Shown: positions 17,827 to 42,924 of the stretch, in pieces
How positions within the stretch are numbered: position 1 is the stretch's first letter
How the letters are laid out: every line of letters starts with the position of its first letter
Assembly: GCA_030431855.1 (NCBI GenBank)
Contig: JAUIII010000008.1
Coordinates: forward strand, 1 to 42,924
Source of the DNA: a bacterium
Lineage (GTDB): Bacteria > Patescibacteriota > Saccharimonadia > Saccharimonadales > Saccharimonadaceae
Direction: 5' to 3'
Length of the DNA: 42,924 nucleotides
Made by a program: the position numbers and the translations under genes
The notes under the pieces: model-generated
What the model saw: only the letters and a program-made list of their open reading frames with translations
What the model was told of the DNA's origin: nothing
The model's database searches: none

Positions 17827-17855
17827 TTGACTTTTTTATCAATATGTGCTAATAT
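17827..17855 (+). promoter_or_regulatory. strong promoter TTGACT-17-TAATAT with TGC before the -10
   Basis: Same layout as 39731-39759 and 21845-21873. Confidence 0.8.
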
Positions 17856-17920
17856 TTTCATACTACGCCCAAGTATCCCTCGGGCGAGAGTCGCCCTTGC
17901 TTGTGCTTAAGGAGGACCCA

Positions 17921-18115
17921 TTGGCCACCAGGATCCGTTTCCACGGCGAGGGGCTGTTGGAGGTCGAAGACGACTACGACGTCGTGAAGGCGGCACACGC
18001 CAAGCGTGGCGAGAAGCCAGATGTCGAGTTCACGCACCGCCCTACTGGCGCGCGTGTCTTGGTCGATCTGACCACCGTGCAGTTCCTGCGTGAGCTTCGC
18101 ATGGACAAGAGCTAG
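17921..18115 (+). CDS. GC3-rich small protein A (64 aa), hypothetical
   Basis: SD AAGGAGG (17909-17915) 5 nt before TTG at 17921; the upstream ATG 17846 precedes the predicted TSS. By hand count about 53 of 65 codons end in G/C. Confidence 0.75.
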   Translation: MATRIRFHGEGLLEVEDDYDVVKAAHAKRGEKPDVEFTHRPTGARVLVDLTTVQFLRELRMDKS

Positions 18116-18135
18116 CTCACAAGAAAGGCGAGGCA

Positions 18136-18201
18136 TGCCCGCATCCGAACGCCTTCAGTCGAACTCCCGGGAGTTCCTGGGAGTCCGGCTGCGGGCGTTT
18201 G
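18136..18201 (+). terminator. GC-rich structured 3' UTR of cassette A
   Basis: CCCGCA...TGCGGG outer pairing and internal perfect palindrome GAACTCCCGGGAGTTC, then GTTTGATTT. Confidence 0.55.
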
Positions 18202-18222
18202 ATTTGTAATACTTTTCCCACC

Positions 18223-27269: not shown

Positions 27270-27345
27270 GCGGGTTTAGCTCAGTTGTTAGAGCGCTTCC
27301 TTGCCATGGAAGAGGCCAGGAGTTAGAGTCTCCTAACCCGCACCA
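27270..27345 (+). tRNA. tRNA-Gly (GCC anticodon), CCA encoded, with non-canonical U19 and A56
   Basis: GCGGGTT/AACCCGC acceptor, CTTCC-TTGCCAT-GGAAG anticodon arm, D-loop AGTTGTTA, T-arm AGGAG-TTAGAGT-CTCCT. Confidence 0.93.
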
Positions 27346-28903
27346 ATTTAGACTTTGAGGACACACCGGTGTCCTTTTTGTTTTCTCTACCTCTGAAAAT
27401 AGGACTGATTTCGTGAGTGTAAATATTTTTATCTGCGTCAACGTAAATTTTGCCTGTAAAAATCAATTGTTTACACCGTTTCATATCCTCCCCTGAGAGC
27501 TCGAAGAAGCTGCTGCCTTTTTTGCTCAAGAAGCTGAAGGCGAAATCGAGAAATTGGTCGAGGTCATTTTCGTGCTCACGAGTAAGCAGGGCTAGTTTTA
27601 CTTCATTGTCCTTGAGGGACTGTTTCTGCTTTTTAATAGATGCCATCAGCTCATCTTTGATGATTGAGTTATTAGGGTCTGTAATCGCATCTACGGTACG
27701 GGAAATGCTCTGGCGGATATTGTTGTTCGCCGATTGAAGCCGTGTTATCTCTGCCTTTGTCTCATTGTTTTTTGAATTATGCATAGAGATAAGTTGAGTG
27801 CGAAGCTGATTGAACTTGCTTGAAGGTAGGATCACGGCGTCTAGTAGGCGAGAAAAGCTTTCGTGCACCTCTTCTCGGCTTAAATATCTATTGCACTCAC
27901 GACATCTATACTTTCGGTAATAACTGACCTTTTTACGCTTCTTGCCGTGGTTAGTCTTGCCATTGTTTAAGGGGACGCTCGTGAACCGAGGATACTTGCG
28001 TTCGGCGGCGTCGCAACTTGCACAGGTCAGCTCATTGCTCAATGGAAACTCTGTATCTTTGTCTATGCGATGCCCTTGCTGATTTTTCGGCTTGCCTTCG
28101 AACACCCGCAGGATGCTTTGGTGCTCAGCACGGCTAATAAGGGGCTCGTGCAGGCCGTTTTCATTGCGTATATTGAATTTCCCTTTAAGGTCGATAATGC
28201 CTGCGTAGTATGGCTCACAGGCGAGTATGCGGAACTTATCCATTTTGTATTTTGAGTACTTCTTGCCAAACTCTGTTTGCATAAGGTCTTTAAGGGCGTC
28301 CGTCGGTGTTTTGGTGTGGGATGCGATTTGCTTGAGTGCTCGTTGCAAAGGAGGACCGATAAAGGGGTCTATCTGATGCACCCCTGGACTAATCCCTTTT
28401 TTGTAACCAGCTTTAGGGCCTGACGGGAGACGACCCTCTTCGATGGCCTTTTGTCCACCGGCGATAGACTTCTTGATGCGTTCTTCGTTACTACCTTCTG
28501 CCGTGAAGTACTTCACAAATCGCATCATTTTTGCACGCATATCGTCAGTGTTCAGGTCTGGGTCTGATGCGTACCAGATAGTAACTCCGAGCATTTCAAA
28601 CTCGACTTCAAAGTGGTAGGCCTCACGTGTGGAACGCATAAATCGGTCTGGTTCGTCGACAATAAGGTATTTAACTTGTCCCTTTTTTGCCTTACAGTAC
28701 GCAAGCATTTCCTTAATATCTTTACGGAAAACGTTCGTACCTGCTTTACTCGATACACTACCGGACCATTGGCCGTCGACTGGTATTGTGACGCCTAATT
28801 CTTTTGCCGCACGCAGGACTGCTGCCTGCTGGCGGCTTAAGCTATTGTTCTCCAGTTGCTCGGTTGAAGAAACTCGACAGGTCGTGATTGCAAGGTATGT
28901 CAT
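27323..28903 (-). CDS. large serine recombinase/integrase
   Basis: Resolvase N-terminus TTCRVSS...DEPDRFMRS, recombinase domain, zinc ribbon CASC...CREC, coiled coil; ends inside tRNA-Gly. Confidence 0.93.
   Translation of the reverse strand: MTYLAITTCRVSSTEQLENNSLSRQQAAVLRAAKELGVTIPVDGQWSGSVSSKAGTNVFRKDIKEMLAYCKAKKGQVKYLIVDEPDRFMRSTREAYHFEVEFEMLGVTIWYASDPDLNTDDMRAKMMRFVKYFTAEGSNEERIKKSIAGGQKAIEEGRLPSGPKAGYKKGISPGVHQIDPFIGPPLQRALKQIASHTKTPTDALKDLMQTEFGKKYSKYKMDKFRILACEPYYAGIIDLKGKFNIRNENGLHEPLISRAEHQSILRVFEGKPKNQQGHRIDKDTEFPLSNELTCASCDAAERKYPRFTSVPLNNGKTNHGKKRKKVSYYRKYRCRECNRYLSREEVHESFSRLLDAVILPSSKFNQLRTQLISMHNSKNNETKAEITRLQSANNNIRQSISRTVDAITDPNNSIIKDELMASIKKQKQSLKDNEVKLALLTREHENDLDQFLDFAFSFLSKKGSSFFELSGEDMKRCKQLIFTGKIYVDADKNIYTHEISPIFRGRENKKDTGVSSKSKLVRVRRL
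27357..27384 (+). terminator. tRNA-Gly terminator nested in the recombinase 3' coding end
   Basis: AGGACAC-ACCG-GTGTCCT followed by TTTTTGTTTT. Confidence 0.75.
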
Positions 28904-28915
28904 TCGCAGACCTCA

Positions 28916-28980
28916 ATATCAGTAGGCGACACCTCTCGGACAAGCTTGCGGAAAGCCAAAGAGACGCCACCTACTAATAT
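28916..28980. repeat. imperfect inverted repeat immediately upstream of the recombinase
   Basis: Arms ATATCAGTAGGCGACACCTCT and reverse-complemented ATATTAGTAGGTGGCGTCTCT, 16/21 identical, differences all transitions. Confidence 0.7.
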
Positions 28981-28987
28981 CGAAATA

Positions 28988-29167
28988 TCATTTTGATTGT
29001 TCCTCATCTTCCGCAATTTGTCCCTCTACTGGTTCTATTTTATCATCGTCTTTTTCTTTTAGGCGACGATAGGCGTCGTAAAGGAAACTAGCCAGCTCAC
29101 TAAGCAGCTCGTTGCTGCTTACAACTTGTGAGCCGTCACCAGCTTTTCTAGTCTCCTTTGACGCCAT
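28988..29167 (-). CDS. 59-aa acidic protein, hypothetical
   Basis: MASKETRKAGDGSQVVSSNELLSELASFLYDAYRRLKEKDDDKIEPVEGQIAEDEEQSK; one residue below the ORF-track cutoff. Confidence 0.55.
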   Translation of the reverse strand: MASKETRKAGDGSQVVSSNELLSELASFLYDAYRRLKEKDDDKIEPVEGQIAEDEEQSK

Positions 29168-29229
29168 ACTCCGACTGTGTCAAAAGGCGGTGTATGTGTC
29201 CGGATTATAGTCGGGTTTATTAGCCTTTA

Positions 29230-29697
29230 TTAGGACTTTGAGCGTTTATCTCTCGTGGAAGTGATATAGTCGTCAACTTCTTTGGGGCTGATATGAAATA
29301 GCTCTGCCCGCTCTCTCGTGATTTCAGTGTGAACCTGGATTTTCTTGCCGTTATGAGATGTTCTGAAAAAAGCTTTTCGAAGCGATAGGGGTATCTTAAT
29401 GTTGTTCACGATTGCGTAGCCACGCTCCTTGGATGGTAGCTCCGCCTCCTTGACCGGTCCGCTGTTTCGCTCTCTAGCCGCCGGACTATCGGGGTAGAAC
29501 AACTCTCTGAAAATAAGGTCACCGTCCTCTTCCCACTGAAACTTCTTGATGACAAAATGCTTGCCAAACTTAAGTTCGCTAGTGCGTTGGTCGTAGGTGA
29601 GTTTGTATAGTACATCGTCGGGCTGAGGCATTTCTACTATTCCGTAGCTTGATGTGGGTTTGCCGCTGAGGCCTATGCTCTCATCCTTTGAATTCAT
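29230..29697 (-). CDS. 155-aa hypothetical protein, R-M associated by position
   Basis: Starts 2 nt after the methyltransferase stop on the same strand. Confidence 0.75.
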   Translation of the reverse strand: MNSKDESIGLSGKPTSSYGIVEMPQPDDVLYKLTYDQRTSELKFGKHFVIKKFQWEEDGDLIFRELFYPDSPAARERNSGPVKEAELPSKERGYAIVNNIKIPLSLRKAFFRTSHNGKKIQVHTEITRERAELFHISPKEVDDYITSTRDKRSKS

Positions 29698-29699
29698 AG

Positions 29700-30953
29700 C
29701 TATCGCTTAGCCGAGAGAGCTTCTCCGACTTTTTGAATTGCACCGACAACTAGAGCATTACCCATAAAGAAAGCTCGCTTTCCATCTGAGACGCCGTCTA
29801 GTTTCGTGTGGTTGTCTGGGAACATATCAAGACGTTCCAGTTCTAGTGGAGTAAGGCGTCGGTAGCGTCCTGAAGGCGTTTTAACGACGTGCTTAAAGCG
29901 AGATGCACCCGAACCGCCCTCGCCGGTGATAATCGTGCGAGAAGGCTTGTCGAGGGCGTCTGGGAATACCATCGCACCTTCTGCGTAGTGATAGACGTGC
30001 CCGCTAGCTGATTTTCGCTCTTCCTTCTTTGCACCCTTGAGATATGTCCAAGCTGGAAGTTTGTCATCGGCGATGAAGAATTCTTCAGGTACATCTTTCT
30101 CGTCTATAAGGATTTCTCCAAGTGTTGCAACCTTGCCATCGTAGCTGGGCGTTACTCGTCCAGTAACTGCAATACGGTCAATCATAATACCGGCGTTATC
30201 GAATGGACTGACGGTTGGCTTGTGTGACGAGAAGTTGTCGGTAATTTCTGCGTAGGTGCCTTCAATCTTAATCTCACGAGTGTTCAACTCTTCTTCTACC
30301 GCAAATGCCTCGGCGAGAACACCCTTATTTGTAAGCCAGTCGTTCGATGCCGTTTTGACGGCCTTTTCGTATAGCTTCGTGCCTTTTTTGTAGCCGACAA
30401 TGAAGATGCGACGTCGACGCTGAGGAAAGCCGTATTCAGCGGCATTAACAACTCGCCACTCGATAGCGTATCCAAGGTCAGAGAGTGCCGCTAGCATTAC
30501 TGCGAAGTCTTTGCCGCGTTGCTTTGCTGGTGATTTTAGTAGGCGGTCTACGTTTTCAAGAAAAAGATAGTCTGGAGCCTTGTCGCCTTTGCGTTTCAGA
30601 ATTGAATAAATCGACCAGAAGAGTACGCCCTTCTTTCCGATAAGTCCGTGGGAGTTCTTTAGGGTACTGGCAACCGAATAGTCCTGGCAAGGAAAGCCAC
30701 CGACTAGCAGGTTGTGGTCAGGGATTGCCTCGAAGTCATCCTCTAGTACTTTTTCAATGTCACGGTTGCTGAAGCCCTCTTTGCCAAAGCGGGCGGCATA
30801 TACTTCTGCTGCGTGTTGTCGTGTTGTCGACGGTTCATATTGGTTTGCCCACACGGTCTCGTAAGTAGTCTTGTCATCACTTGCAGCTTCAAGACCAAGG
30901 CGGAAACCGCCAACGCCAGCAAAAAGTTCGACAATTTTGATTTTCTTTCCCAT
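29700..30953 (-). CDS. DNA (cytosine-5-)-methyltransferase
   Basis: ELFAGVGGFRLGLE, GGFPCQDYSVA, ENVDRLL, QRRRRIFIVG, RRLTPLELERLDMFPD. Confidence 0.96.
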   Translation of the reverse strand: MGKKIKIVELFAGVGGFRLGLEAASDDKTTYETVWANQYEPSTTRQHAAEVYAARFGKEGFSNRDIEKVLEDDFEAIPDHNLLVGGFPCQDYSVASTLKNSHGLIGKKGVLFWSIYSILKRKGDKAPDYLFLENVDRLLKSPAKQRGKDFAVMLAALSDLGYAIEWRVVNAAEYGFPQRRRRIFIVGYKKGTKLYEKAVKTASNDWLTNKGVLAEAFAVEEELNTREIKIEGTYAEITDNFSSHKPTVSPFDNAGIMIDRIAVTGRVTPSYDGKVATLGEILIDEKDVPEEFFIADDKLPAWTYLKGAKKEERKSASGHVYHYAEGAMVFPDALDKPSRTIITGEGGSGASRFKHVVKTPSGRYRRLTPLELERLDMFPDNHTKLDGVSDGKRAFFMGNALVVGAIQKVGEALSAKR

Positions 30954-31027
30954 ATTATGACCATTTTATCAACAATCATTCAATCGATCAAGTCCAATCG
31001 ATAAACAGTTTTGATATAGTTAATAAT

Positions 31028-32356
31028 ATGCAACCCACATATGACATAACCTCGCCGCAATCGCTACTTGATTTTGCAAAGGGACTGTCAGGCAAAACCC
31101 TGGCTGAGGTTATTGATATGACCGCTGTCACCGAGAACAGAAGCAACAAGGGTGACTTGGGCAATATGGTTGAGAAGTACTACTATGGCTTTCAGCCTGA
31201 TAACTCAACACACCTTCCAGACTTCCAGGACGCTGGTGTCGAACTAAAGACGACGGGCGTACTGAGAAAGTCAGACGGTAGCTACAAGGCCAAAGAACGC
31301 CTTGTGTTAACGATGATTAACTATATGTCTCTCGTTGATGAGCAGTGGGACAGCTCTTCGCTGATGGAAAAGTGTCGCTTGATGCTCATACTCTTTTATC
31401 TGTACGAGAAAGGGCTTCCTGTATTTGATAGGCGTTTTGTGTTGCACCCCTCGCTGTTTGAGTTTCCGGAAGAGGACCTTGAAATTATTCGTCAGGACTG
31501 GGAGACAATTCGCCGAAAGATTGAAGATGGTAAGGCTCACGAGCTATCCGAGGGTGATACCTATTATCTAGGTGCCTGCCGTAAGGGTTCGGGTGGTCCA
31601 GACGAGAAGCTAAGGGAGCAGCCTTTTTCCGATGTACTAGCAAAGTCTCGTGCGTTCTCTCTAAAGCCAAGTTACGTAAACCGAATTATTGATGGCCATA
31701 CATCAGAAGTGGGTGCTTTTGAGGTTGGTGCCGGCATTGGGATCGAAGAGGCGACACGTCGAAAGTTTCAACCCTATCTGGGGAAGACCGTTGCTGAGAT
31801 ATCTACTATGCTCAATTTCCATAAAAAAGGTAAGAACGATAAAAGCTTTTACGCAAACTTGACCAAGAGAATGCTGGGTGCTGATACAAAAACAGTGCCT
31901 GAATTTGATAAGGCGGGTATAGAGCCCAAGACTGTCAGGGTGGACAGGAACTGGAAGCCTGCCGAGCCAATGTCGTTCCCAGGCTTTAAGTATATGGATA
32001 TCATTCACGAAGATTGGGAGAAGAGTAGCTTTTTCAAGAAAATTGAGAAGCGTTTTCTGTTCGTGATATTTCGTAAAGACGAATATGGTGAGCTGCGTCT
32101 TGAGAAGGTTAGCTACTGGAATATGCCATATGCAGATAGGCTGGAGGCTCAAAGGGTGTGGGAGGACACGAAGCGTCGTGTAGGCATTGACGCAAGTGAC
32201 CTGCCCGGCTCAAAGGAGAGTGCTGTCGCTCACGTTAGGCCAAAGGGTCAGGACGGCAAAGATTTAATACCCACACCTCAAGGTACGAGCCTCGGGAAGA
32301 AGTGTTTTTGGCTCAATCGTGACTACATTGCTGATGTGGTCCAAAATCACATCTAG
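31028..32356 (+). CDS. Type II restriction endonuclease, Sau3AI/MutH family
   Basis: GDLGNMVEKYYYGFQPDNSTHLPDFQDAGVELKTTGVLRK...KERLVLTMINY, with a second MutH-like half. Confidence 0.85.
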   Translation: MQPTYDITSPQSLLDFAKGLSGKTLAEVIDMTAVTENRSNKGDLGNMVEKYYYGFQPDNSTHLPDFQDAGVELKTTGVLRKSDGSYKAKERLVLTMINYMSLVDEQWDSSSLMEKCRLMLILFYLYEKGLPVFDRRFVLHPSLFEFPEEDLEIIRQDWETIRRKIEDGKAHELSEGDTYYLGACRKGSGGPDEKLREQPFSDVLAKSRAFSLKPSYVNRIIDGHTSEVGAFEVGAGIGIEEATRRKFQPYLGKTVAEISTMLNFHKKGKNDKSFYANLTKRMLGADTKTVPEFDKAGIEPKTVRVDRNWKPAEPMSFPGFKYMDIIHEDWEKSSFFKKIEKRFLFVIFRKDEYGELRLEKVSYWNMPYADRLEAQRVWEDTKRRVGIDASDLPGSKESAVAHVRPKGQDGKDLIPTPQGTSLGKKCFWLNRDYIADVVQNHI

Positions 32357-38454: not shown

Positions 38455-38722
38455 TCTCACATATCTGAGTGTATAAATCTCTCGACCTACTACATCAACT
38501 AGTCCAACCGATACTCAACTTCTAGCAAGGACCTCCATCGACTCAGTTCTACATCAATTGAGTGTAAACTTTTCTATTCGGGCCGCACCACAAGATACAT
38601 CCCAGATATTTCGGCATCTATTTGTTTTATATCAAGTATACTTTTCACTTGTAATGGTATAATCGTAGCGATGCGGTGACCGAGAATAGGTGTTGCCTTG
38701 CAAAGGCTTCTACGGCGAAGTT

Positions 38723-39721
38723 ATGTCCGCCCCGCATCTCCAAGTTAATATGACAGCGCAAGAATACATCCAGCAACGACTAGAGCACCTGCACGTGCCC
38801 AGCAAGCCCGTCGAAGTAAGGGGATCTGTTGAAGATGCCATATACGCGCGGCTAATGTCAAAGAAGTTTCGTAAAATGAAAGCAGGTGATCCCTGTGTTG
38901 AAATCACGAAACGTGTGGTTGCGAAAGCCGTAAAAGAACAGACACCGATTATGGTGACTGAGTGCTTCGGCGGCAATAAACTGTGGAGATTCGAGGAAGC
39001 ACCGGAAATAGACTGGGCGGAGCTATTCAGTCTCTTTTACTTTGTTGATTGGATGAAGTATGTCGCAGCAGTACACAAACCAGGCATGATATTTGACTAC
39101 TTTTCGCAAGATTTGTCTGTGGAGCGACTTGATAATCTGTCTCGCGAAGAAATGGATGCTTATAGTAATACGTTTCGCCAGATGATACGGTTTATCGAGC
39201 CGTATCTGCCGGATGGGGTATCAATAACTTATCGTCGTCACCGTGAGATGTTTGGTGATGAGTCAGATTACGACAAAGAGATTCAGGCAGCTATGGAAAA
39301 GATGTTGCGAGACAACGATGGCAAGATGCCAACACTGGACGACGAGATGAAGACAAGAACTGAGCTGAATGTACGACCATTGCCCGGACAGACAGATGAA
39401 GCTGACTGGCGAGAAAAAGTTGAGTTGCAACATCAAGCAATTTTTAGAACACCGACTCTCGGTAAATATCTGAACTTTCCAGACATGGTGTGGACCTGCC
39501 CGACCTACTATGAAGATTCCATCGTTACAGGTAGCACAAAGCGATCGATTGCGAAATTTTGGGCTGGCGTGGGTGCGCTTGAGAAGTCCGACAATACCTA
39601 CCAAGAGCTCGTACTAACACCAAAACAGCTAGAAAAAGCTGAATTTGTTTGGCAAGATGTAATCATCGACGGCTTATCTGGTAAAAACTTCGCTAAAATT
39701 CGAGTCATCACAAAACAATAG
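38723..39721 (+). CDS. hypothetical protein (about 332 aa from the ATG at 38723)
   Basis: Long ORF; start uncertain (38723 or 38750). Confidence 0.75.
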   Translation: MSAPHLQVNMTAQEYIQQRLEHLHVPSKPVEVRGSVEDAIYARLMSKKFRKMKAGDPCVEITKRVVAKAVKEQTPIMVTECFGGNKLWRFEEAPEIDWAELFSLFYFVDWMKYVAAVHKPGMIFDYFSQDLSVERLDNLSREEMDAYSNTFRQMIRFIEPYLPDGVSITYRRHREMFGDESDYDKEIQAAMEKMLRDNDGKMPTLDDEMKTRTELNVRPLPGQTDEADWREKVELQHQAIFRTPTLGKYLNFPDMVWTCPTYYEDSIVTGSTKRSIAKFWAGVGALEKSDNTYQELVLTPKQLEKAEFVWQDVIIDGLSGKNFAKIRVITKQ

Positions 39722-39730
39722 ATATAGATA

Positions 39731-39759
39731 TTGACATTTTATTGTGTTTATGCTAAAAT
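39731..39759 (+). promoter_or_regulatory. strong promoter TTGACA-17-TAAAAT with TGC before the -10
   Basis: TTGACA TTTTATTGTGTTTATGC TAAAAT. Confidence 0.85.
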
Positions 39760-39801
39760 TGGCTTGTTGTCGGAGTTTATTGTTATACTCCGAAGCACAC
39801 C

Positions 39802-40178
39802 ACAGGCAGACACGAGAGGACCAGTCATGCAGACCAGCACAGAAACGATCGTGTTCCGTCGGATCTCGCTCGAACCGCACGAGGAGTTCGACGTGCGTCT
39901 GAGGGGGTTCCCCCGATGGCGCGTGAACATGCTCGAGGTCACCGCGGCCTACATCACCGTGTACGGCGGCAAGGGCAACAACTCGCGGGGCTCATGCGTG
40001 AAGTTCGAGCACCGCTTCCGGGACGTCGATGACCTCCCGGGCATGCCGCACCACGTGGCTGTTGAGGTGCGTAGCGCCTTCAACGACCTCGGCCCACAGC
40101 AGGTCACCAGCTAGCTCTTCCGGAGCTGGACGAATATGACAAGCGGGCGCAGAGGACGTACCACTTGTGTCTGCCTGT
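39802..40178. repeat. perfect 12-bp inverted repeat bracketing cassette B ORF
   Basis: ACAGGCAGACAC 39802-39813 and GTGTCTGCCTGT 40167-40178. Confidence 0.9.
39827..40114 (+). CDS. GC3-rich small protein B (95 aa), hypothetical
   Basis: SD GAGAGGA 6 nt before ATG 39827; by hand count about 84 of 96 codons end in G/C. Confidence 0.8.
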   Translation: MQTSTETIVFRRISLEPHEEFDVRLRGFPRWRVNMLEVTAAYITVYGGKGNNSRGSCVKFEHRFRDVDDLPGMPHHVAVEVRSAFNDLGPQQVTS

Positions 40179-40194
40179 CAAATTCGTTTCACTG

Positions 40195-40230
40195 AAGTAT
40201 TCTCAATATTCTGGGAATACTTTTATTTTG
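40195..40230 (+). terminator. Rho-independent terminator of cassette B
   Basis: AAGTATTC...GAATACTT followed by TTATTTT. Confidence 0.7.
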
Positions 40231-40336
40231 CTGATGAAATATCTTCAAAATAAAAAAGCCATTTACATTCACAAAAAAAGTTATACACTTATATCAATAC
40301 ATAATTACCTCGGTGGAAGGCACAAAGGAGACCAGG

Positions 40337-41686
40337 GTGTCACGAATTGTTAACAAGTCTAAGTTTTTGAAGGGTAAATCAAAGCGCTTTACAGCTGGCG
40401 TAGCTGGAGTACTGACGCTATCGCTCGTAGCAGCTGTTGGGGTACTGGCTGCATCGCTAAACCTACAGGACCGTGCAGTACTGGCAGGAGTCAACTACCC
40501 GTCTACCCCGTCTTGGGACGTGTGTGTGGGCGATGTAAACAACGACGGAAATGAAGATTTTCATGTTAGTTTGCACATGAAGAATTCTGGACCGCTATAC
40601 CAGAGTAATGGCGATGGGACCTTTGCCCGCATTGCGACGAACATTTCCCCGCGCCCTACACCTGGGTTTGCGAAGAATTCATATGTAGACCGCCACGCCT
40701 GCGCAATGGCTGATGTAGACCAGAACGGTTTGTTAGACGTGTACAACGCGGCTGGTCGATGGGCGACTAATAAACTTAAAGACGAGGGAATAAACAACGA
40801 GCTATGGCTACAGACAGCGCCAGGTGTGTATGAAGACGCTGCTACTGAGGCAGGTGTAGGAGAAGAGTGTTCACGAGGCCGCTTCCCTGTATTCGCTGAC
40901 TTTAATGGCGACGGCTGGGTAGACATGTTCCTCGGTGCGCAATATGAACGAGCTGATAGTGCTGATGTATGTAACAATTTGCCAGACTCCCCCACAAATG
41001 AACAGTCTAAAATCTTTATCAACCGCGGCCTTAATTCATATGGTGACTGGGCAGGTTTCAGCATTGCGAGTGAATACAACGTTAGTCAAAAGAACACAGG
41101 CAATCGATTCGCTATCAGCTGGGATGAGAACAACGATGGCCGTCCAGACCTACTGACACAAGCATTTGCGAACAACCGACCATACTTTTACCGCAACAAT
41201 GGTACTAGCTTTACTGAAATGTCACGTGCTGGTACGAAGCGCTTTCCGCTGATGAATGGTGCAACCACCGGTGACGTAAACGGCGACGGCTACACAGATG
41301 TGGTATTTGCAGACAACAATGGCTTTGCATGGATGCGCGGTACTGCGACTGGTGTCAGTACGTCAGTAAACCGAATCGCTTCATTGCCATCTAGCCAACG
41401 TGCGTGGGGTGTAGCTGTAGGTGATATCAATGGAGATGGTGTAACCGACATCTACGGCTTGATTCGTGCTGCAACAGCGGGTAGCGCTAACCCAGATGAC
41501 ATAGTATATGTTGGCCAAGCTGGCGGTACGTTTGTAGCACATGCAGCTCCAAGTGCTGGTGGTGATGCGAACGATGTCGAGGCGGTTTTTGTAAATGGTC
41601 GCGCACAGTTCGTGGTTCTGAATGGTGGCAACGATGAAAAAGCAGCGCCAGGCCCAGTTCAGCTGATTAGCTGGGTAGAAAACTAG
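40337..41686 (+). CDS. FG-GAP/VCBS-repeat surface protein
   Basis: N-terminal TM; repeats DVNNDGNED, DFNGDGWVD, DVNGDGYTD, DINGDGVTD; SD AAGGAG before GTG 40337. Confidence 0.9.
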   Translation: MSRIVNKSKFLKGKSKRFTAGVAGVLTLSLVAAVGVLAASLNLQDRAVLAGVNYPSTPSWDVCVGDVNNDGNEDFHVSLHMKNSGPLYQSNGDGTFARIATNISPRPTPGFAKNSYVDRHACAMADVDQNGLLDVYNAAGRWATNKLKDEGINNELWLQTAPGVYEDAATEAGVGEECSRGRFPVFADFNGDGWVDMFLGAQYERADSADVCNNLPDSPTNEQSKIFINRGLNSYGDWAGFSIASEYNVSQKNTGNRFAISWDENNDGRPDLLTQAFANNRPYFYRNNGTSFTEMSRAGTKRFPLMNGATTGDVNGDGYTDVVFADNNGFAWMRGTATGVSTSVNRIASLPSSQRAWGVAVGDINGDGVTDIYGLIRAATAGSANPDDIVYVGQAGGTFVAHAAPSAGGDANDVEAVFVNGRAQFVVLNGGNDEKAAPGPVQLISWVEN

Positions 41687-41702
41687 CCTTTACTGAACAA
41701 TA

Positions 41703-41734
41703 AAAAAACCGCTGGCCTAGACCAGCGGTTTTTT
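41703..41734. terminator. bidirectional-looking Rho-independent terminator
   Basis: AAAAAACCGCTGG-cctaga-CCAGCGGTTTTTT. Confidence 0.95.
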
Positions 41735-41813
41735 ATTGTTGCTGTTGCTTTTTTTCGAAAAAGAGGTTAGAGTAAACGTAATTAATCAAGTAGATATCAG
41801 GAGATTGTTCACC

Positions 41814-42924
41814 ATGAAATCCATTAATACTAAGTTTATTTTTGTTAGCGTACTTGCAATTGCAAGCATGGTCGCCGGATTCGCAACAATCAGCAAAGCT
41901 GCTTCTACTGAACTTGAGGACGGCATCAAAGGTTCAGGCCTGTACGGCTATCAACGAACATGGTCGGCAAACACTGTCGACTTTAACAACGATGGCCTAG
42001 AGGACATTTGGCTAGGTTATCACCAGCAAGTAGACTCAAAACTTATGCGCAATAATGGCGACGGCACCTACACCCGTGTGGCCCACAACGTAACAGCCCG
42101 AGTAAATGAAGACGGCGGTATTTTAGATCGACACGACTGCGCTTGGGCGGACGTAGACCACAATGGATTTAAGGACATGTACTGTTCTGGTGGTCGTAAC
42201 CTGGAAAACTATTACAAAACCGCTGAGAAAGACAACGAGCTATGGCTTCAAGTAAGTCGAGGTAAATTTACAGAAGCAGGCACCGAGTGGGGCGTAGGTG
42301 ACCCATGCGGACGTGGACGCTTTGTGGCATTTCTCGATCTAAACAATGACGGCTGGGACGACTTGTTTGTCGGTAACGAAAAACCACGTGACGTTGCAAG
42401 TCCTGAGTGCGACCCGCTAGAGGGCACCGAGCGACATAGCTACTCAAAAGTATTTCTCAACGACAATGGCGAACGATTTGTATTTGCACCACAATTTGCA
42501 ACCGCTAACCCATCTACTGGTGTGAACTGCGCGGTACCTATGGACTACAACAAAGACGGATGGATTGACCTGCTGGCGTGTAACTATAAGAACAGCCGTG
42601 GCCAACTATTTCGAAACAACTCCGGCAATGGCTTTACAGAAGTTGGTTCATGGAACTTGTCGCGCCTAAAGCCTATGACTGACGCAGAATACGCTGATAT
42701 TACTGGCGACGGCATAGAAGATATCGTTGCGTCTGATCAGCAGGGGCTCTACTACCACGCAGGTACAGCAACAGGATTCGACCCAACACAGACTCGGTTT
42801 TACTGGAATAACTTTAATGAAGGCGAAGCGCTGTATGGCTGGGGCTTGGCAATTGGTGATATCAACGCCGACGGACAGATGGATGTTTACGGTCTTATCC
42901 ACGACACGACCGAGAGTCGTAACC
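41814..42924 (+). CDS. second FG-GAP/VCBS-repeat secreted protein, truncated by window end
   Basis: MKSINTKFIFVSVLAIASMVAGFATISKAAS signal peptide; DFNNDGLED, DLNNDGWDD, DYNKDGWID repeats; open to the edge so absent from the ORF track. Confidence 0.92.
   Translation, partial: MKSINTKFIFVSVLAIASMVAGFATISKAASTELEDGIKGSGLYGYQRTWSANTVDFNNDGLEDIWLGYHQQVDSKLMRNNGDGTYTRVAHNVTARVNEDGGILDRHDCAWADVDHNGFKDMYCSGGRNLENYYKTAEKDNELWLQVSRGKFTEAGTEWGVGDPCGRGRFVAFLDLNNDGWDDLFVGNEKPRDVASPECDPLEGTERHSYSKVFLNDNGERFVFAPQFATANPSTGVNCAVPMDYNKDGWIDLLACNYKNSRGQLFRNNSGNGFTEVGSWNLSRLKPMTDAEYADITGDGIEDIVASDQQGLYYHAGTATGFDPTQTRFYWNNFNEGEALYGWGLAIGDINADGQMDVYGLIHDTTESRN

Follow-up and report, generated by a model that had tools for sequence, protein, structure and literature searches.

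Cassette B, a tiny single-gene unit of foreign appearance in the 42,924-nt stretch of Saccharibacteria DNA analysed here (the window, which is the entire contig C20 of the 830-kb, 28-contig genome G000), is, as judged from its sequence, a worn member, with a decayed hammerhead ribozyme, of a widespread family of "clamp cassettes". The interpretation regarded as fairly likely, given sequence comparison and predicted folds, is that B is a single-gene cassette of a Saccharibacteria family in whose mRNA the 5' and 3' ends would be clamped together by complementary arms, an arrangement that probably also throttles the ribosome-binding site. In the family, predicted ribozymes that cleave themselves, long-range pairing between the 5' and 3' ends of an mRNA and a rapid turnover of genes are brought together in a single conserved RNA layout. 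Literature searches for hammerheads or gene cassettes in Saccharibacteria gave no relevant result, and the family is apparently undescribed so far.

Layout of cassette B

The promoter, 5' hairpin, 95-aa ORF, 12-bp arms and terminator that a sequence-only reading had described for B were confirmed to the exact coordinate by direct reading of the sequence, and the GC3 of the ORF, given there as about 87%, is 0.874 in a genome with a GC content of 48.1%. All features are on the forward strand. The sigma-70 type promoter (39731-39759) consists of TTGACA (-35, 39731-39736), a 17-nt spacer and TAAAAT (-10, 39754-39759), the latter extended by a TGC in front. It is followed by a hairpin at the 5' end (39770-39793; TCGGAGT 39770-39776, ACTCCGA 39787-39793), the CCGAAGCAC spacer of the family and the 5' arm ACAGGCAGACAC (39802-39813; family form TGACAAGCAGACA), from which pairing reaches 39819. 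Directly 3' of the arm is a Shine-Dalgarno-like GAGAGGA (39814-39820), which lies partly within the predicted 5'-3' duplex. The ORF (39827-40114) begins with ATG at 39827 and ends with a stop codon at 40112-40114. The 3' region that matches the family covariance model R1 (40115-40257) contains ACGAATATGACAAGCGG (40130-40146; GCGAATATGGCAAGTGG in the family), a local competitor strand able to pair with the 3' arm region, then the 3' arm GTGTCTGCCTGT (40167-40178; extended arm 40161-40178) and ATTCGT (40182-40187), which in the alignment to R1 corresponds to the 5' strand of helix III in the hammerhead. An intrinsic terminator (40195-40229; stem 40195-40205/40212-40222, with the T-run TTTTATTTT) stands at the hammerhead position, and CTGATGA (40231-40237) aligns as a possible remnant of the hammerhead core, of which GAAA and helix III are lost.

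Pairing of the arms is perfect over 12 nt on B's own register and covers 11 of 13 positions on the family register; it extends to 18 nt at 89% (39802-39819/40161-40178), the duplex having an energy of -31.3 kcal/mol. When the 5' UTR (66 nt) and the 3' UTR (121 nt) were shuffled 4000 times on a dinucleotide basis, arms of 12 bp were reached once. Among 661 ORFs of the genome (60-400 aa, 170-nt flanks; B itself is uncounted, as its ORF begins there at an upstream TTG), arms of at least 12 bp were present at two, one being another family cassette and the other overlapping a further cassette. Long arms with a similar motif are present in two further cassettes of the genome, C14:41429-41821 (TGACAAGCAGACA, 13 bp) and C9:3891-4436 (16 bp). 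That the complementarity arose by chance in an ordinary horizontally acquired gene is hardly credible: 12 bp taken alone is moderately rare and B is an orphan, which would suit chance, but the shuffling result, the arms of C14 and C9 and like arms in Saccharibacteria elsewhere all speak against it.

No relative of the B protein was found in Pfam, NCBIfam, PHROGs, PADLOC, phages, plasmids, genome contigs or 396 genomes of the family, so protein homologues cannot be used to test the arms. The sole match in the viral_contigs protein search (L202) comprised 22 residues within an unrelated ORF. The AlphaFold model of the protein alone is uninformative (pLDDT 37). The sequence-only reading had named conservation of the protein with loss of the complementarity as the outcome that would overturn it; what was found in the family is the opposite, complementarity being kept while the protein changes.

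The cassette family

The family was searched for over 85,488 genomes with the 19-nt pattern TGTCTGCYTGTCANNTTCG, which derives from the 3' arm as it stands in B and C14. It matched 66 loci, a count which alone says little because about 60 matches are expected by chance (authors' estimate). The complement of the 3' arm further upstream, which is absent from the pattern, provided an independent criterion. The cassette family was recognised at 14 of the 66 loci: 13 of them have, about 450-1030 nt upstream of a match, a 5' arm that agrees at 12-13 of 13 positions, and the remaining one (L265) begins within its ORF. At the other 52 loci the upstream 5'-arm match never exceeded 10 of 13. Eleven of the 14 loci are titled Saccharibacteria or Saccharimonadia; three (L203, L257 and L265) stand under one Spirochaetia MAG, but these are contigs of 1.0-1.4 kb with the same cassettes and are probably mis-binned. 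Cassettes occur in tandem in L260, where the first of three matches has no such 5' arm in the available stretch.

The letters of the arms (two mismatches or fewer) matched 36 times in G000, as against about 43 expected, which is noise; the 13-mer CTTTGACAAGCAG was weakly enriched over the family genomes (24 matches versus 12 for the reversed control pattern). The arm signal resides in the pairing, not in the letters.

The covariance model R1 was built from 16 units, all from outside G000. Searched against the 830 kb of that genome, it yielded at E < 0.05 C14 (84.8 bits, E 1e-18; a palindromic, weaker echo lies on the reverse strand) and B (34.7 bits, E 3.8e-6) alone; the E-value of B is partly circular, as the 16 units had been gathered with the 3'-arm motif that B has. 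Three features of B are independent of the search pattern, namely ACGAATATGACAAGCGG right after the ORF, the CCGAAGCAC spacer by the 5' arm and CTGATGA at the expected hammerhead core. Of these, CCGAAGCAC also stands just before the 5' arm in L220 and C14, and ACGAATATGACAAGCGG corresponds to the local-hairpin strand of the family (of the type GCGAAUAUGGCAAG, upstream of the 3' arm), pairing more weakly than in the relatives. The 5'-end hairpin directly before the 5' arm is likewise a family feature, and CTCCGAAGCAC from this region of B is also present in L260b.

Regarding distribution, R1 at E 1e-4 matched 50 of 199 genomes sampled from the order, that is, a quarter (49 of the 196 genomes of good quality; 37 of 110 genera), with as many as 36 matches, reverse-strand echoes included, in the single genome RYN_414. 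Of 148 genomes drawn from the phylum, R1 matched 12. Most matches beyond the order are weak as well as short, and may represent a hammerhead without the rest of the unit.

In most family units a type III hammerhead follows just after the 3' arm. The exceptions are L243, which has no hammerhead, L260b and L266, whose cores are changed, and L203, where the contig ends before the hammerhead position. Matches of the relatives to Rfam Hammerhead_3 (RF00008) reached 28-41 bits (E 1.5e-5 to 0.055), which is below the Rfam cut-off of 48.5 bits; the hammerheads so matched in L214, L220, L224, L238, L260 and L263 show covariation, and the hammerhead helices of the family contain 10 pairs changed on both sides. 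Hammerheads conforming to a strict pattern also lie 3' of cassette ORFs in the closest relative, G012 (C19), and in G005 (229400); the strict type III pattern has no match in G000. In B, Rfam returned no hammerhead and chance matches only, and of the elements of a type III hammerhead (core CUGANGA...GAAA, helices I-III, open at helix III) CTGATGA alone is present. Since its GAAA and helix III are gone, the ribozyme of B would be dead.

The ORFs between the arms differ between cassettes and are mostly unannotated. The cargo of L203 (1-1078) matches Tad4, an inhibitor of type I Thoeris (PF25186, E 1.4e-29), that of L214b is a DUF2807 protein, and the cargo proteins of L224 and L260a are 63% identical.

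Pairing of the arms and insert borders

In nine distinct arm pairs, 95.7% of the cells are paired and 4 of 13 pairs are changed on both sides; the covariation score was reached by 0 of 500 shuffles, and sliding the partner lowered pairing to 48% or less. The rows are different cassettes, partly paralogous, and the test thus shows that complementarity is kept, not how many independent events there were. At one site the change can be followed directly: G012 has, at the equivalent position, a homologue of the C9 cassette (76% identity) in which both arms have changed in concert, GCAGATTGC having become GCAGGTTGC and GCAATCTGC having become GCAACCTGC, which replaces A-U by G-C. (Cassettes adjoining cmk in relatives were considered as occupants of the C9 site and rejected; they sit on the opposite side of cmk.) Because cassettes whose ORFs are unrelated preserve the complementarity through compensatory and G-U changes, the arms probably act as RNA.

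A second covarying structure is a local hairpin of 26 bp in the 3' UTR (92% paired; both partners changed in 7 pairs). It uses the same 3' arm, so the arm strand can pair either with the 5' arm or locally, and it also covers the strand of hammerhead helix III. In transcripts cut near the cleavage site, the predicted probability of 5'-3' pairing, P(clamp), was 0.99 for B, 0.99 for C14, 1.00 for C9 and 1.00 for the G012 homologue of C9, and ranged in other members from 0.00 (L232) to 1.00 (L224, L260a and L214b). The local hairpin is favoured over the clamp in several members with hammerheads, P(clamp) being 0.00-0.11 in L232, L214c and L259.

The sequence-only reading had also offered the arms as terminal repeats of a tiny element, which the comparison with a cassette-free locus contradicts. 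The MarR and FG-GAP genes around the region of B are 233 bp apart in G012 (C23:2614-2848) versus 1858 bp in G000. The extra DNA of about 1.7 kb (about 38576 to 40272, ends good to a few bases) holds a 343-aa ORF of unknown family and cassette B, whose promoter and arms are all internal to it. The borders lie outside the arms, not at these repeats as in a transposable element with terminal inverted repeats, and the arms are thus not the ends of an element. Cassette A (window 17827-18219) is absent from G012 as well, and its insert borders are the TATTGAC of its promoter and a point just past its terminator.

In a wider form, the same idea would make the arms DNA-level sites of recombination or transposition of a mini-element, be it as terminal inverted repeats or as integron-like ends. 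It draws on arms that hardly vary (TGACAAGCAGACA) from one genome or cargo to the next, on the fast turnover of cassettes (7 of 29 G000 cassettes have a homologue in G012) and on the tandem cassettes of L260. It is nevertheless held to be unlikely, as the inserts of A and B end where they do, the promoters lie outside the arms, and the arms vary with compensatory and G-U changes and are tied to the hammerhead and to a covarying RNA hairpin. The arm sequence is conserved beyond the needs of pairing, a point against the clamp reading that hints at binding by a protein or at recent shared ancestry.

According to the preferred reading, that of an end clamp at the RNA level, the mRNA would begin with the hairpin, followed by the 5' arm, and the 3' arm past the ORF would pair with the latter, clamping the ends. 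In most relatives the 3' end would be produced by the type III hammerhead that follows the 3' arm, with a short tail left past the clamp, and the same 3' strand, when engaged in the local hairpin, would hide the helix III strand, which would amount to a two-state switch. In B, with its hammerhead apparently decayed, the intrinsic terminator would make the 3' end and the clamp would be the favoured state. The clamp of B runs into the Shine-Dalgarno sequence and would most likely protect the mRNA and, as soon as the 3' end has formed, lower its translation.

Some weight, well short of a probable account, is given to a reading in which the arms of B are mainly a translational gate, a late fold-back over the Shine-Dalgarno sequence of the hok type, and the clamp does not contribute to stability. 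Gating of this kind, which had been proposed from the sequence, is plausible for B itself, where the duplex runs into GAGAGGA at the predicted pairing of 0.99 given above. Also in favour is a structure in the 5' UTR of some relatives: just upstream of the start codon of L214, L224 and L263 is a RAGATH-10-like structure (RF03147; 33.5 bits versus a Rfam cut-off of 41.2 bits, and not found in B) with the Shine-Dalgarno sequence in its 3' strand, with which an upstream strand could compete. RAGATH-10 has, to our knowledge, no assigned function. But gating did not hold as a general function: the 5' arm lies tens to more than 100 nt from the start codon in most relatives, where gating cannot explain its conservation, and Shine-Dalgarno gating is therefore special to B.

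Circularisation of the mRNA, likewise put forward earlier, would require that the clamp joins self-cleaved ends for ligation, as a natural analogue of circularisation by ribozymes and RtcB. Engineered circular RNAs of the Tornado type combine a ribozyme with a complementary end stem, and the clamp cassettes resemble them in having a 3' hammerhead that adjoins a perfect 5'-3' stem. They differ in that no 5'-end ribozyme was recognised, B itself lacks a functional one, and RtcB (PF01139) was found in 0 of 14 genomes of the genus, in 9 of which a control search was positive. A covalent circle thus looks very improbable, and an end-to-end clamp fits the lack of RtcB in these genomes better.

Known systems and genome setting

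In the type I toxin-antitoxin system hok/Sok, the 5' UTR and the 3' end of the mRNA pair over a long range (tac/fbi) in competition with local structures. The clamp cassettes are alike in setting long-range 5'-3' pairing against local structures; they differ in their diverse cargo with no evidence of a toxin, and 3' processing would be by the hammerhead. Integron cassettes and phage morons are single, variable, often orphan genes, morons having their own promoter, terminator and odd base composition. Clamp cassettes differ in being dispersed on the chromosome, with no link to an integrase array seen (attC sites were covered unsystematically), and no clamp unit with both arms was found in the viral_contigs searches (13 + 3 loci).

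The nearest published setting found is that of prophage genes with hammerheads: in the available part of the report by Perreault et al. (2011, PMC3088659), type III hammerheads are described from bacteria, and hammerheads flank single prophage genes, e.g., around the anti-restriction gene ardA. TM7 bacteria are unmentioned among the hammerheads in that part of the paper. The two settings, so far as that text describes the prophage one, are alike in placing self-cleaving RNA beside single, non-constant genes, one of them anti-restriction. They differ in that the unit described here is a monocistronic cassette with its own promoter, dispersed in bacterial chromosomes, whose ribozyme is framed by paired 5' and 3' arms together with a 3' hairpin that competes with their pairing. 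The family provides a concrete biological setting for bacterial hammerheads, for most of which no purpose is known, and a way into the accessory genes of tiny parasitic bacteria, nearly all of them unannotated.

About 28 short, mostly single ORFs of high GC content (GC3 up to 0.96) are dispersed over G000, e.g., at C4:10731-11093, C6:8951-9796 and C24:1238-4859. Most are preceded by an AT-rich promoter of the TTGAC-17-TATAAT type and followed by a hairpin, and a Pfam search at E 0.01 gave no match for any of the 28. Cassette A had been credited with the same architecture as B. This holds for its promoter, GC-rich ORF and terminator but not for long arms, the longest 5'-3' arm being 7 bp, and R1 does not find it. 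As a tentative suggestion, one that could well be mistaken, Saccharibacteria may maintain a rapidly changing stock of single genes, high in GC and mostly orphans (one cargo being Tad4-like), on a standard RNA chassis of strong promoter, end clamp, 3' switch and hammerhead, which would give very long-lived or switchable mRNAs and represent a new class of mobile expression cassette. If this were true, such chassis mRNAs would suit a cell living on another bacterium.

Proteins of G000 are about 30-77% identical to those of named Saccharibacteria loci, many of them 45-60%, and the genome is assigned to Saccharibacteria on this basis. The tandem cassettes L016 (G000:C15, 10720-11618) and L152 (G012:C1) have near-identical promoters and terminators, unrelated ORFs and, by eye, a short 5'/3' complementarity GCACCTCAG/CTGAGGTGC. 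The proteins of G012:C25:48044-49522 are 100% identical to those of G000 C15, other contigs being mostly 70-99% identical; the G012 bin may be mixed, or there may have been recent exchange. The 343-aa ORF next to B (38690-39721) has a 37% homologue on C7. The FG-GAP repeat protein gene adjoining B lies within 40313-42924, where a second run of similar sequence is located downstream of it. Elsewhere in the window (27323-32356), genes for a serine recombinase-like resolvase, a C5 cytosine methylase and a MutH-domain protein are clustered in what looks like a restriction-modification locus.
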